NCBI RefSeq assembly: GCF_030655665.1 | Contig: NZ_JAUSPQ010000006.1 | Location: 124,001-188,000, forward strand | Direction: 5' to 3' | DNA from: Methanocorpusculum sp. | GTDB taxonomy: Archaea; Halobacteriota; Methanomicrobia; Methanomicrobiales; Methanocorpusculaceae | DNA length: 64,000 nt | Shown: positions 17,396-64,000 of the stretch, one piece after another | How the letters are laid out: every line of letters starts with the position of its first letter | Numbering within the stretch: the first letter of the stretch is position 1 | Translations under genes and position numbers: made by a program | The notes under the pieces: generated by a model | What the model was told of the DNA's origin: nothing | Seen by the model: the letters and a program-made list of their open reading frames with translations, nothing else | Databases searched by the model: none

Positions 17396-17800
17396 TCAGT
17401 ATATATAAATTATCCCGGTGAGATTCAGATAGATATTGATGTCCTCTCTGATTGTACCGTCAGCAATCTTTTCCGGCACGGCGGTCATTACCCGATTCAT
17501 CAGTGCGCCGGTATCATACTGGACTTTGATGTTAATCTGGCGTGCGGCTTTGTAGATCAAAAAAATTTCATGGGTAAGCTCGCTTCCTGCAGAAAGTGTG
17601 CAGACAAGGGTCGCCTCAAGTGAATAGACATAGTCCAGAGCCTCTTTTGCGAGCCGGATATTATCGTTGGCCGATTTCTCTATAAGACTGATGTTCGAGC
17701 GGGTGGTCTGGAGTTCATCAGCGATTTCCTGTTGAGTCATACCATCCTTTCGGCAGTGGATCACCATCTTCTGACGATCTGTTAACAACGGTCCGGGCAT
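17396..17800 (-). CDS. Tfx-family DNA-binding protein (paralogue 1)
   Basis: 134 residues from MPGPLLTDRQ at 17800; a longer frame to 17899 adds a non-homologous extension. The N-terminal HTH reads LLTDRQKMVIHCRKDGMTQQEIADELQTTRSNISLIEKSANDNI. The C-terminal domain ends in EDINIYLNLTGIIYIY. Tfx was described in Methanothermobacter as binding near the promoter of molybdenum formylmethanofuran dehydrogenase. Here it sits between the tungstate transporter and fdhAB, fitting control of Mo/W enzymes. A second copy lies at 61602-62006. Confidence 0.88.
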   Translation of the reverse strand: MPGPLLTDRQKMVIHCRKDGMTQQEIADELQTTRSNISLIEKSANDNIRLAKEALDYVYSLEATLVCTLSAGSELTHEIFLIYKAARQINIKVQYDTGALMNRVMTAVPEKIADGTIREDINIYLNLTGIIYIY

Positions 17801-18223
17801 TATTCTTACCTTTGCAACTGATGAGTATAAAATATCTTTGATTCCACTATTTTTTTGAAAAAACCCTTCAAAGATGGGGGAAAACCGGCGCACGCACAAA
17901 CACCACCATTATTGATCAAAAAATCGAAATGGGGCGAGCAGAATGGCCCGAATGTAATTACAAGCCCTAATGCGTTCTCCCTCAATTATTAGAAATACCT
18001 TGAATCCTTGCGCGTATCAGCAAACTGGGGCGTTTAGTGCGTTAATTTAATGTTAATGTAAAAAAATAAACACATCCATTTTGTAAACTAAAAAGTATGT
18101 TTTGTGCTGATTTATGATACTTTGTAAACTAACATCATTTTACACAAACCACAAATAATTGACAACACTGTCAATTAATATACCCTCGTTCAAAGAAATT
18201 TAACTATACGAGGTTTACCAAAC
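17801..18223 (+). promoter_or_regulatory. fdhA: fdhAB promoter region with repeats and operator-like palindrome
   Basis: 423 gene-free bases. TTTGTAAACTAA occurs at about 18080 and again at 18121, spaced 41 bp (about four helical turns). TTTTACACAAA lies near 18139. A perfect inverted repeat AATTGACA-ACAC-TGTCAATT covers 18157-18176 and runs straight into TTAATATA (18175-18182), the likely TATA box, which puts the start of transcription near 18205 and the ATG at 18224. A regulator at the palindrome would compete with TFB/TBP; the TGTAAACTA pair could be an upstream activator site. Confidence 0.55.
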
Positions 18224-20296
18224 ATGGCTGATTTGAAATATATTCAGAGCACTTGCCCCTACTGTGGAACGGGTTGCTCTTTCAACCTCGTTGTAAGTGA
18301 CGGGAAGGTAGTTGGTGTGTCTCCCTACCCCCGTTCACCTGTCAACGAAGGAAAACTCTGTCCGAAAGGCATGTACGCCAACGAGTTCATCAACTCCCCC
18401 GACAGACTGACAACGCCCCAGATCAGGAAAGACGGCAAACTTGTGCCTGTTTCCTGGGATGAAGCAACGAGCTTCATCGCGGAAAATCTGAAGAAATACA
18501 AACCATCAGAGCGGTGTGCTCTATCTTCTGCCCGTGTGTCCAACGAAGATAACTACGCCATGATGAAATTTGCCCGCGGTGTTTTGAAGACCAACCATCT
18601 TGATCACTGTGCACGTCTGTGTCACTCTTCCACCGTCGCCGGTCTTGCTGGTTCCTTTGGATCCGGTGCAATGACCAACAGTATTCCCGACATTGCCGAG
18701 TCCAAATGTGTTTTCATCATTGGTTCCAACACCTTTGAGCAGCACCCGCTGATCGGACGCCGCGAATACATGGCAAAAGCAAAAGGTGCCCACTACATCT
18801 ACGCTGACCCGAGACGTACCATCACCGCCAGTCAGGCAGATCTCTTTTTACAGTTCCACTCCGGATCTGATGTCGCTCTCCTTAACGGTTTGATGCATGA
18901 TATCATCAAGAACGGATGGGAAGACAAAGAGTTCGTCGCAAAACGTACCAAAGGCTACGAAGAACTCAAAGCCCTTGTCATGCAGGAGAGATACAACCTT
19001 GAGAACGCTGCCAAGGTTACTGGTCTCACGCCCGAAGAGATTCACACCGCAGCTGACTGGATCGCCAATTCAGGCGGATGTGCGTTGATCTACTCCATGG
19101 GTATCACCCAGCACACAGTCGGTGTCGACAACGTGCACGCGACTGCAAACCTTCAGATGCTTACCGGCAACCTCGGGAAACCAGGTACCGGCGTCAACCC
19201 ACTCCGTGGCCAGAACAATGTTCAGGGTGCCTGTGATATGGGCGCACTTCCGGTTAGCTTCCCCGGATACCAGAAAGTCACCGATCCAGAAGCACACAAG
19301 AAATTCGCCGATGCCTGGGGCTTCCCCGAAGACATCGCTCCGACCCAGAACGGATACGAAGTTACCATCATGATGAACGTTCTCGTGGACAACCCCGGAG
19401 AACTCAAATGCATGTACATCATGGGTGAAAACCCGCTTATGTCCGATCCGGACTTAAACCACGTGAAGGAAGCATTCGAGAACATTGAGTTCCTCGTTGT
19501 TCAGGATATCTTCTACAACGAAACCTGTGACTACGCTGATGTCATTCTTCCGGCCGTCTGTTATGCAGAACGTGACGGAACTCAGACCAGCACCGAACGC
19601 CGTGTGATCCGCTGGAGAAAGGCTCAGGACGCTCCAGGAGAAGCACTTGATGACTGGCAGATCATCTCCATGGTCGCCGCAAAGATGGGCTACGAAAAAC
19701 AGTTCGCATGGAAATCTGCATCTGAGATCTTCGACGAAATGGCGGTCCTTACTCCGCAGTATCACGGTATGAACTACGAACGTCTCAACACGCCCGAAGG
19801 TCTCCACTGGCCATGCAAGACCCCCGAAGACCCCGGAACCCCGATCCTCCACAAAGAGAAGTTCCTTACACCGGACGGACTTGGTGTCTTCTTCCCGGCA
19901 GAATGGAAAGCACCGGCTGAGGTCCCGGACGAAGAGTATCCGTTTGTTTTCACGACCGGACGTTGTTTGTTCCACTGGCATACCGGAACCATGACCCGCC
20001 GCAGTCCGACTCTCGACAAGGAAGTTCCGACCGGCTGGATCGAGATCAACGACGAGGATGCTAAAGCACTCGGCATCAATGACGGCGAGATGGTTCACGC
20101 AACGACCCGCCGTGATACTATCTCCGTAACGGCAAGAATCAGCCCGCAGATCATGAAAGGAACGACTTTCATGCCGTTCCACTTCGCTGAATGTGCAGCC
20201 AACCTGCTTACCCACAACGCACTTGACCCGGTCTGTAAGATTCCGGAATACAAGGCATGTGCAATTAAAATTACCAAGATCGAGGAGGGCCAGTAA
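18224..20296 (+). CDS. fdhA: F420-dependent formate dehydrogenase, catalytic alpha subunit
   Basis: 690 residues. The N-terminal [4Fe-4S] site is Cys11, Cys14, Cys18 and Cys46 (CPYCGTGC...GKLCPKG). The Mo/W-bis-pterin ligand is Cys133 in CARLCHSS, encoded TGT at 18620-18622, so this is a Cys and not a selenocysteine enzyme. Later come FIIGSNTFEQHPLIGRR and the C-terminal pterin-binding beta barrel (FTTGRCLFHWHTGTMTRRS). It oxidises formate to CO2 and passes electrons to FdhB. It is the first gene of fdhAB; the stop codon abuts the fdhB ATG. No formate transporter gene (fdhC) is present here. Confidence 0.96.
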   Translation: MADLKYIQSTCPYCGTGCSFNLVVSDGKVVGVSPYPRSPVNEGKLCPKGMYANEFINSPDRLTTPQIRKDGKLVPVSWDEATSFIAENLKKYKPSERCALSSARVSNEDNYAMMKFARGVLKTNHLDHCARLCHSSTVAGLAGSFGSGAMTNSIPDIAESKCVFIIGSNTFEQHPLIGRREYMAKAKGAHYIYADPRRTITASQADLFLQFHSGSDVALLNGLMHDIIKNGWEDKEFVAKRTKGYEELKALVMQERYNLENAAKVTGLTPEEIHTAADWIANSGGCALIYSMGITQHTVGVDNVHATANLQMLTGNLGKPGTGVNPLRGQNNVQGACDMGALPVSFPGYQKVTDPEAHKKFADAWGFPEDIAPTQNGYEVTIMMNVLVDNPGELKCMYIMGENPLMSDPDLNHVKEAFENIEFLVVQDIFYNETCDYADVILPAVCYAERDGTQTSTERRVIRWRKAQDAPGEALDDWQIISMVAAKMGYEKQFAWKSASEIFDEMAVLTPQYHGMNYERLNTPEGLHWPCKTPEDPGTPILHKEKFLTPDGLGVFFPAEWKAPAEVPDEEYPFVFTTGRCLFHWHTGTMTRRSPTLDKEVPTGWIEINDEDAKALGINDGEMVHATTRRDTISVTARISPQIMKGTTFMPFHFAECAANLLTHNALDPVCKIPEYKACAIKITKIEEGQ

Positions 20297-61601: not shown

Positions 61602-62006
61602 ATGAAAGATACGCTTCTTACCGACCGTCAGAAGGAAGTCATCCGATATCGTAAAAAAGGTATGACGCAGCAGCAGATCGCTGACCGACTTGGGACATCC
61701 AAGGCAAACATCTGCACTATTGAAAAATCCGCCAATGAAAATATCCGTCGGGCAAAGGAGACGCTGGAGTTTCTGTACACACTTGACGCCACTGAACTGT
61801 GTGTTCTCCCTGAAGGTACGGATCTGATAGAAGCTCCGAAGATCATCTATGTCTCAGCGGCCCCTCTCAATATTAAAATCCGGTATGATACCCTTGCCTT
61901 GATCAACCGGATCTCATCCTACATGCCGGAAAAAATTAAAGGTCGGCATGTCAAGGAGGATATCATTGTCTATCTCAATAATGACGGCGAACTGTACTTC
62001 GGCTGA
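61602..62006 (+). CDS. Tfx-family DNA-binding protein (paralogue 2)
   Basis: 134 residues. TLLTDRQKEVIRYRKKGMTQQQIADRLGTSKANICTIEKSANENIRRAKETLEFLYTLDA is the Tfx HTH, closely parallel to the copy at 17396. The C-terminal half ends EDIIVYLNNDGELYFG. It lies opposite mtd, about 310 bases from the mtd start, so control of mtd or of itself is possible. AATCATTTATAGTTAATC (61565-61582) is a probable TATA region and the ATG follows within about 25 bases, suggesting a leaderless mRNA. Confidence 0.88.
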   Translation: MKDTLLTDRQKEVIRYRKKGMTQQQIADRLGTSKANICTIEKSANENIRRAKETLEFLYTLDATELCVLPEGTDLIEAPKIIYVSAAPLNIKIRYDTLALINRISSYMPEKIKGRHVKEDIIVYLNNDGELYFG

Positions 62007-62129
62007 TCACGGTCCCGATCGTATTTTTCAGGTAATGCCGAGTGTGTGCCTCCAAGGTTCAGTGTATGGCGGCTGGGTGGATCCGAAGACCATACAACAA
62101 TTTATATTCTCTCTTCTCCAATAACATAG

Positions 62130-62715
62130 GAGCCTTCAATAGGCTGATATCAGCAAAATCTGCTGAATGAGGATATCCAGTTGGTATGAAACAACCGTGG
62201 TTTCACGTTTGTTTTGTAATTGTGTAACTCTAAGCGGGCAATCCCGCGGTAGATGTTAAGACCTACTATAGGTCTGATTAGGTGCGCCGGGCGAACGTCT
62301 TAATGATGTGCCCTTTCCTGGACGTCAGGAAGCGTATCGGAAGTCAGGTTCTCTTTCGTGAGACTTGGAAATCGCAGTAAAAACTGCAAATCGGGTAAAT
62401 GAACAGATAAGACGTTATCGTGTTCATAATCGGATATCCCACAAGGAATCTCAATTGCGTGCAAAGCAGTGCTTTGCGTGCCTTCACACGTTGAAATACA
62501 CGTGAGTTGAACTCCCGTCTTTCCGTCCAATGTGTCACATGCCCGCGCTTACCAGCGCAATCAGGTGTGTTAAACACAGAGACCGACAAAATGCGTCCCG
62601 CAGGTCGATTCCTGGATTCTAGGAAGCCGGCGGTGAAAGAACGGCTGTCATATTGATGACAACCACAGCAGACGTCTTCCTTGCATAATGCAAGAGAAGG
62701 CACTAAAGGATTGAT
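62130..62715 (+). ncRNA. Large hairpin-rich RNA candidate upstream of rpl3
   Basis: 715 bases (62007-62721) without a credible gene. A TATA-like AATTTATATT (about 62099-62108) is followed by a run of perfect hairpins: GCCT/AGGC (62132-62144), CAGCA/TGCTG (62151-62165), GCGGG/CCCGC (62234-62247), AGACCTA/TAGGTCT (62259-62275), GCAGT/ACTGC (62374-62387), TGAACA+GATAA / TTATC+TGTTCA (62400-62426), GCAAAGC/GCTTTGC (62461-62477), GCGCT/AGCGC (62545-62558), TGTGTT/AACACA (62566-62578), TGTCAT/ATGACA (62646-62661), CTTGCAT/ATGCAAG (62680-62694). I did not find the conserved sequences of RNase P RNA or SRP RNA. It could be an independent RNA or the leader of the ribosomal protein operon. Confidence 0.55.
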
Positions 62716-62721
62716 TAATAA

Positions 62722-63723
62722 ATGAGAACAGTGAGACCCCGTGCCGGGTCACTTGCATACTATCCAAAAGTGCGGGCTAAGGGCATCGTACCAAAGTACC
62801 AGTCCTGGCCAGCATACAATGGGCAGCCAATGCTCCAGGGATTTGCAGGCTACAAAGCCGGTATGACCCACGTGATCATGATCGATGATCGCAAGAAGAG
62901 TCCGACTGAAGGTAAGGAAGTAATGGTTCCCGTAACCGTTATTGAAATCCCAGCCATGATCGTTGCTGCCATTCGTGTTTACGTTAAAGATACCTACGGC
63001 AAACACCCGCTGACTGAAGTCTGGGCAGAAAACCTCGAAGCACTCTCCGGCAGAATCACCAAAGCAAAGACCAACAATGCTGCAAAAGCAACTGAGAAGA
63101 TCAATGCTGCAATTGGCGATGTTGTTGAAGTAATGGTGCTCATGTACACTAAACCGACCGAGATCACCGGTATTCCAAAGAAGGTCCCTGACCTTATGGA
63201 GATTCGTGTTGCCGGCGGCAGTGCACAGGAACGTTTTGATTACGCTCTCTCCATCCTTGGGGCCGATGTCGATATGAATTCCCTCCTTAGCGAGGGTCAG
63301 TTCGCTGACATTACCGGTATCACCAAAGGAAAAGGATTCCAGGGTGCAGTCAAAAGATTCGGTATCACCCTTCGTAAGAGAAAACACGCAAGAACCAAGA
63401 AGGAAAGACATATCGGAACTCTTGGTCCATGGACTCCCCACCACGTCCGCTGGCAGGTACCAATGCCAGGTCAGATGGGTTTCCAGCAGCGTACTGAGTT
63501 CAACAAACGTATCATCAAGATCGGTGAGAACGCAGACGAAATCAACCCGGCCGGAGGCTTCCTCCACTATGGTCTTGTCCGTAATAACTACGTCTTGATC
63601 AAAGGAAGCATCCCCGGACCGGCAAAACGCCTCGTCAGAATCCGGTCTGCTACCCGCATGGGTGAGCAGAAGGTTCAGACCCCGGTTGTAGAATATGTCA
63701 GTCTTCAGAGCAAACAGGGGTGA
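62722..63723 (+). CDS. rpl3: Ribosomal protein uL3
   Basis: 333 residues. [25 protein letters not shown] and [12 protein letters not shown] at the N-terminus, [69 protein letters not shown] is the classical L3 core that reaches the peptidyl transferase centre. It opens the archaeal S10-like operon (L3, L4, ...). AAAGGA lies about 12 bases before ATG. Confidence 0.97.
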
Positions 63724-63731
63724 AATGACCG

Positions 63732-64000
63732 ATGAAAGCAAATGTAAAAGCAATTAACGGCTCAGTCCTCCATGAAATTGAACTCCCGGCCGTATTCGAC
63801 GAAGCATACCGCCCGGACCTTATCAGAAGGGCCATTCTCGCATACCAGAGCGAACAGTACCAGCCGCACGGGGCAGACCCGCTTGCAGGTCTGCGGACCT
63901 CTGCAGTAGGTTGGGGATCCAAACGCGGTGAAGCTAAGATTCCGCGTATCAAAAACGGAAGCCGTGCTGCAAAAGTACCTAACGTAAAAGGCGGTCACCC
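63732..64000 (+). CDS. rpl4: Ribosomal protein uL4 (5' part, runs off the window)
   Basis: First 89 residues, reading MKANVKAINGSVLHEIELP then AVFDEAYRPDLIRRAILAYQSEQYQ and WGSKRGEAKIPRIKNGSRAAKVPNVKGGHP, the archaeal L4 start. The start at 63732 follows GGGGTGA at the L3 stop. An ATG at 63725 is out of frame and quickly stops. Cut by the window edge. Confidence 0.95.
   Translation, partial: MKANVKAINGSVLHEIELPAVFDEAYRPDLIRRAILAYQSEQYQPHGADPLAGLRTSAVGWGSKRGEAKIPRIKNGSRAAKVPNVKGGH

Follow-up and report, generated by a model that had tools for sequence, protein, structure and literature searches.

The region between tfx and rpl3 of Methanocorpusculum sp. is an expanded, non-coding variant of the known ribosomal protein leader family RF03135, with an unusual history. 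Most likely, it represents a leader of approximately 590 nt preceding the rpl3-rpl4-rpl23-rpl2 operon, which contains an L4-type three-way junction as its core, would be subject to feedback by L4, and retains a once nested RNA that outlived the surrounding PF02598 gene. The region was analysed in the context of a stretch of 64,000 nucleotides, hereafter the window.

A preliminary description of the window had pointed to positions 62130-62715 as a gene-free stretch behind a TATA-like element with more perfect hairpins than expected by chance. In line with this, we counted 15 perfect hairpins that do not overlap and have stems of 5 bp or more with loops of 3-8 nucleotides, as compared to a mean of 2.8 and a maximum of 8 in dinucleotide shuffles, and 7 perfect hairpins with stems of at least 6 bp (shuffles 0.65, maximum 2). 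Moreover, the fold energy amounts to -211 kcal/mol versus -168 ± 7.6 kcal/mol in shuffles (z = -5.7). In a survey of the window, in which segments of 590 nt were taken at intervals of 900 nt and each compared to its own shuffles, this region showed the largest departure (-47 kcal/mol; others mean -7, sd 9). The gap between both genes comprises 715 nt (tfx end 62006, rpl3 start 62722) and is devoid of a credible open reading frame, the longest stop-to-stop stretch on the + strand encoding 53 amino acids. The genes and the parts of the region are as follows:

61602..62006, + strand: tfx (PF14601), the upstream neighbour
62101..62108, + strand: TATA-like promoter box (box A) TTTATATT, conserved across the genus
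62131..62166, + strand: 5′ hairpins AGCCU..AGGCU and UCAGCA..UGCUGA, including the genus-invariant CUGAUAUCAGC
62171..62439, + strand: domain I, multibranched, in which GGAUAUCC (62171-62178) and GGAUAUCC (62432-62439) form the closing helix around several hairpins and the L4-type element
62268..62365, + strand: L4-type ribosomal protein leader element (core), three-way junction, from RF03135, model R1 and covariation
62401..62425, + strand: hairpin GAACAGAUAA-GACG-UUAUCGUGUUC, whose GACG loop is conserved; within the genus, GAUAA/UUAUC and GACAA/UUGUC alternate (helix 16)
62455..62504, + strand: clade-specific hairpins, present only in this species and its five closest relatives, a gap in other clades
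62517..62583, + strand: domain II, GUCUUU..GGAGAC-type helix topped by a hairpin of variable length (consensus fold helix 18)
62596..62661, + strand: domain III, CCGC/GCGG helix (62598-62601 paired to 62630-62633), then GGUGAAAGAACGG and the hairpin UGUCAU..AUGACA
62674..62700, + strand: terminal hairpin GUCUUCCUUGCAUAAUGCAAGAGAAGGC, just 5′ of the ribosome-binding region
62707..62715, + strand: Shine-Dalgarno-like sequence AGGAUUGAU ahead of rpl3; AGGATTGAT or AGGACTGAT is common across the order
62722..63723, + strand: rpl3, ribosomal protein L3 (PF00297, E 1.5e-86)
63732..64000, + strand, running past the window edge: rpl4, ribosomal protein L4 (PF00573), the presumed ligand

A second Tfx-family gene is located at 17396-17899 on the - strand, divergent from a molybdopterin oxidoreductase gene (formate dehydrogenase alpha-type, 18224-20296). 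The AT-rich gap between the two contains the near-perfect palindrome AATTGACAACACTGTCAATT at 18157-18176, which could be an operator.

The assignment of the core is based on two covariance models. The Rfam model RF03135 ('L4-Archaeoglobi') matched positions 62274-62347 of the window with 29.4 bits (E 0.0034), below the curated cut-off of 34.5 bits, and the core aligned over all 85 model positions. Upon scanning of 20 loci of the order Methanomicrobiales, 12 reached the cut-off, including two of the same genus (L012, 37.8 bits; L018, 34.9 bits), and on orthologous gaps the scores were 34.9-43.0 bits within the genus and up to 50.5 bits in loci of the order that lack the PF02598 gene (hereafter gene-less). 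For the second model, R1, 13 non-coding sequences from Methanomicrobiales were used. It matched 73 of 78 gene-less tfx-rpl3 gaps, with one match each. Of 37 gene-containing loci, R1 matched 36 at the corresponding place, and in the own genome it recognised a single site, 62268-62365 (72.1 bits, E 1.6e-13). On the basis of these model matches, the core is homologous to the RF03135 family. It is composed of the outer helix CUGA/UCAG, the helix GGUGCGC/GCGUAUC, the arm GGGC-GAA-CGU..AUG-U-GCCC and the hairpin UUCC..GGAA. The three-way junction with its CUGA/UCAG outer helix, which is present according to the full-length model alignment and covariation, the internal-loop arm and the position upstream of the rplC-rplD(-rplW-rplB) operon are shared with RF03135. 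In contrast to the family as described, the element is found here in Methanomicrobiales, is non-coding, lies within a leader of about 590 nt and 375 nt before rpl3, and scores below the cut-off. In the text of Eckert and Weinberg 2020 (PMC7247131), RF03135 is given for Archaeoglobi only and is rated 'borderline'. The initial notion of an undescribed RNA therefore holds for the flanking 400 nt or so, for which no Rfam match was obtained, but not for the core, which belongs to a described family. The exclusion of SRP and RNase P RNA, made by eye at that stage, was correct: archaeal RNase P RNA (RF00373) and archaeal SRP RNA (RF01857) each have a single match in the genome, at C3:127381-127692 and C3:20148-20460, respectively, and none in the window. 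Rfam matches to mir-374 (E 3.7) and sR38 (E 3.9) were attributed to chance.

Conservation of the hairpins with covariation among relatives, which the preliminary description had proposed to examine, was borne out for the core. Across 69 distinct sequences without the gene, pairing amounts to 93.2% of the pair cells as compared to 76% in shuffles and 24-48% in controls with slid partners, and 259 two-sided changes were counted versus 81 in shuffles, whereby the alignment was fitted to the structure and thus flatters both the pairing and the counts of two-sided changes. Under a purpose-written, tree-aware null modelled on R-scape, 6 of 16 testable core pairs reached E<0.05, while no pair outside the structure fell below E=2. 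The coding copies of the element, described below, covary likewise. Covariation thereby confirms the predicted three-way junction.

Matches to RF03135 were obtained in 156 of 246 genomes of the phylum, one each among the matches listed. In the best 30 of these 156 loci, rpl3 is located about 420-490 nt downstream of the element, and the element resides inside a reading frame of approximately 300 codons ending just before rpl3. This frame corresponds to PF02598, a putative RNA methyltransferase of the SPOUT fold. A further 20 loci, taken from other families, showed the same location in every case; outside the order, each of the 50 loci examined thus has the element within a PF02598 gene directly upstream of rpl3. 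Overall, 124 of the 126 genomes outside Methanomicrobiales that contain PF02598 harbour the element, and an element without the gene was found there only in genome G137. Two genomes of family f18 (G149 and G186) kept PF02598 and gave no significant element match, the only two such cases outside the order among those searched; here, the RNA would have been lost or would have diverged while the gene was retained. A location within the PF02598 gene beside rpl3 applies to most Halobacteriota that carry the element, haloarchaea and other families included, whereas in the window and its genome the gene is absent and the RNA element alone is left. The main text of PMC7247131 does not mention a location of the element inside a methyltransferase gene.

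In 28 haloarchaeal genes, fourfold-degenerate sites are 0.78 identical within the element as compared to 0.64 in the remainder of the gene, and identity reaches 0.81-0.89 at the 5′ side of the element. In haloarchaea (loci L095-L124), synonymous conservation starts as much as some 20 codons ahead of the RF03135 boundary, indicating that the functional RNA probably extends further 5′ than the Rfam model.

Among 130 relatives, PF02598 is present in four, always directly before rpl3, and absent from 126, including the genome of the window, in which a PF02598 search yielded no match. Across the element, all 31 gene-containing loci show a spacing of 1 modulo 3 and lack stops. In contrast, the gene-less loci are distributed over the three spacing classes modulo 3 (29, 22 and 18), and 35 of 69 contain stops. 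When the methyltransferase was used as a tblastn query, the matches in gene-less leaders were almost entirely confined to the element and in some cases fell in two frames. Possible coding remnants were limited to short pieces over the element in some loci of the order and a match over about 100 codons in L055; within the genus, no such methyltransferase pieces were detected by tblastn. From the abandoned frame together with the tblastn pattern, it follows that these bases are kept for the RNA and not for the protein.

In a tree of six ribosomal proteins, the gene-containing members of the order fall in two families among gene-less ones. Provided that the gene was not regained, PF02598 would have been lost about seven times in the order, with an eighth loss in G137, a count that is approximate as some deep nodes of the tree are weakly supported. 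A late regain of PF02598 in the order may have occurred in place of repeated loss, but it would require that the same nesting was recreated at the same place. The locus L147 of G137, outside the order, carries the element at approximately 1500-1600 on the - strand, about 430 nt before rpl3, and lacks PF02598, while G158 of the same genus contains the gene, which points to an independent gene loss with retention of the RNA in G137. The most likely course of events is the following: ancestrally, the RNA element would have been written within the PF02598 coding sequence ahead of rpl3; on the line leading to Methanocorpusculum, and repeatedly in Methanomicrobiales, the gene would have been lost with the nested RNA retained; and the former coding stretch would have turned into a non-coding leader, which carries lineage-specific structured domains.

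Control of the corresponding S10 operon by L4 is well established in bacteria, and by this analogy L4 is most likely the ligand of the core. The protein, encoded by the second gene of the operon, would bind to the junction in its own message when present in excess of rRNA, and the L4-bound junction would lower expression of the operon. Presumed control of an L3/L4/L23/L2 operon by L4 is also the feature shared with the bacterial S10-operon leader of E. coli and relatives, a shorter leader that does not lie within a gene; no structural relation between the two is claimed. A further precedent is the autoregulation by L1 in Methanococcus, where the binding site is located in coding sequence. There as here, an archaeal ribosomal protein operon would be under feedback through a coding-sequence site, although protein and operon are different and the L1 site lies in the ribosomal protein's own gene. 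It is possible, if somewhat doubtful given the bacterial precedent of L4, that the core is a ribosomal protein leader responding to L3, L23, L2 or an assembly factor instead: the operon opens with rpl3 and also includes rpl23 and rpl2, L3, L23 and L2 fit the position equally well, no computed evidence singles out L4, and in the text of PMC7247131 L4 was assigned to RF03135 because it is a known bacterial leader ligand, by analogy and not from experiment. The methyltransferase itself is an unlikely ligand since the element persists where the PF02598 gene is absent; on these gene distributions it is excluded as a necessary one. Mimicry of 23S rRNA was not apparent in a local alignment of the leader with the own 23S gene region (score 22, shuffles mean 24), in which the core motifs are absent.

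The flanking domains are unrecognised outside the family, and we consider them genus- or family-level structure as judged from the alignments. Within the genus, the 131 pairs of the consensus for the whole leader show 93% pairing and 171 two-sided changes, as compared to 66 such changes in shuffles. However, no single consensus pair was significant at genus level under the tree-aware null, because only four or five clades are available, and covariation is accordingly claimed for the core only. The predicted closing helix of domain I is almost invariant. Several inner helices of this domain show two-sided changes in the genus. Domain III is kept in the genus and the sister genus with the helix variants CCGC/GCGG, CCGU/ACGG and CCAU/AUGG; these amount to compensatory changes at the family level, where the claim stops short of covariation. 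The terminal hairpin (helix 23) displays two-sided changes at all 7 pairs, with only 72% of the cells paired in that alignment, and is followed by an open AU-rich ribosome-binding region. The sequence UCUGCUG in the 5′ hairpin region can alternatively pair with CAGCAGA at 62666-62672, and covariation favours neither pairing.

In addition, CUGAUAUCAGC (62147-62157) is complementary to CUGAU/UUGAU of the rpl3 ribosome-binding region (62707-62715), and masking of the translation start is possible; the bases involved hardly vary. The consensus fold also proposed a helix 2 between the 5′ AUCAG and the Shine-Dalgarno region, which we do not claim: four of its five pairs are invariant, and in the sister genus the Shine-Dalgarno motif has changed without an obvious change of the partner. 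The likeliest role of the flanking domains would be to relay binding at the core to the rpl3 start or to control the stability of the message. Alternatively, outer domain I and domains II and III could form a second, independent sensor or a processing signal, such as a site for a second ribosomal protein or a nuclease. The conserved blocks, namely GGUGAAAGAACGG in domain III, which is common to the genus and sister genus and accompanied by compensatory helix changes, and the invariant CUGAUAUCAGC and GGAUAUCC, would be compatible with such a function, but the domains lack an Rfam match and similarity to 23S rRNA and are not found beyond the family, and we regard this possibility as rather unlikely.

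Concerning the extent of the transcript, TTTAT of box A is invariant in 21 loci of the genus and nearly so across the order, and from its position transcription likely starts at approximately 62125-62130, i.e. about 22-27 nt 3′ of the box. Downstream of rpl4, the genome contains rpl23-like and rpl2-like genes and further genes, named by position, size and sequence. We did not find a terminator-like site on the + strand of the tfx-rpl3 gap. Given the TATA box at the 5′ end, the missing terminator and the ribosome-binding sequence before rpl3, the simplest reading is that the whole region would be transcribed without interruption as a single 5′ leader, some 590 nt long, of the rpl3-rpl4-rpl23-rpl2 operon. 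The preliminary description had offered three options, of which the very long S10-operon leader with regulation agrees best with the promoter box, the missing terminator, the adjoining rpl3-rpl4 and the structured gap, which is conserved directly ahead of these genes in the whole order. Neither of the other two options, a free-standing large archaeal non-coding RNA or a transcript giving rise to several RNAs, gained support. An RNA or RNAs independent of rpl3 would be consistent with the own TATA box, the length and the strong multi-domain structure, but this is improbable in view of the lacking terminator, the conserved ribosome-binding sequence at the end, the location nearly always directly before rpl3, and a length that varies from 490 to 990 nt among lineages while the core stays constant. 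In L021 of the same genus, the leader is about 280 nt longer than in its neighbours and contains several inserted stretches, several of them self-complementary.

That the RF03135 signal is a mere echo of a conserved PF02598 coding stretch is hardly credible: the element does coincide with coding sequence outside Methanomicrobiales in all examined cases but one, and coding constraint by itself can preserve likeness of the DNA, but in the gene-less leaders, which are too numerous to be artefacts, the frame has been given up and the structure covaries, third-base conservation in haloarchaea is raised precisely at the element, and R1, built from non-coding copies, finds the coding ones.

Taken together, a borderline leader candidate of one class becomes a well-supported RNA element spread through the phylum, in a field, the regulation of archaeal ribosomal proteins, that is poorly known. 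The removal of the gene about seven times in one order, with the nested RNA kept, would constitute a rare, repeated natural experiment that separates selection on the RNA from selection on the protein at the same bases. As the element is present in Haloferax, a genetically tractable host, the balance of archaeal ribosomal protein synthesis becomes directly testable. Tentatively, a regulatory RNA that arose within a coding gene may have persisted through several independent losses of that gene, and the leader thus freed may, in Methanocorpusculaceae, have grown into a multi-domain RNA of about 590 nt that comprises a second regulatory or sensing domain adjacent to the putative ribosomal protein-binding junction.
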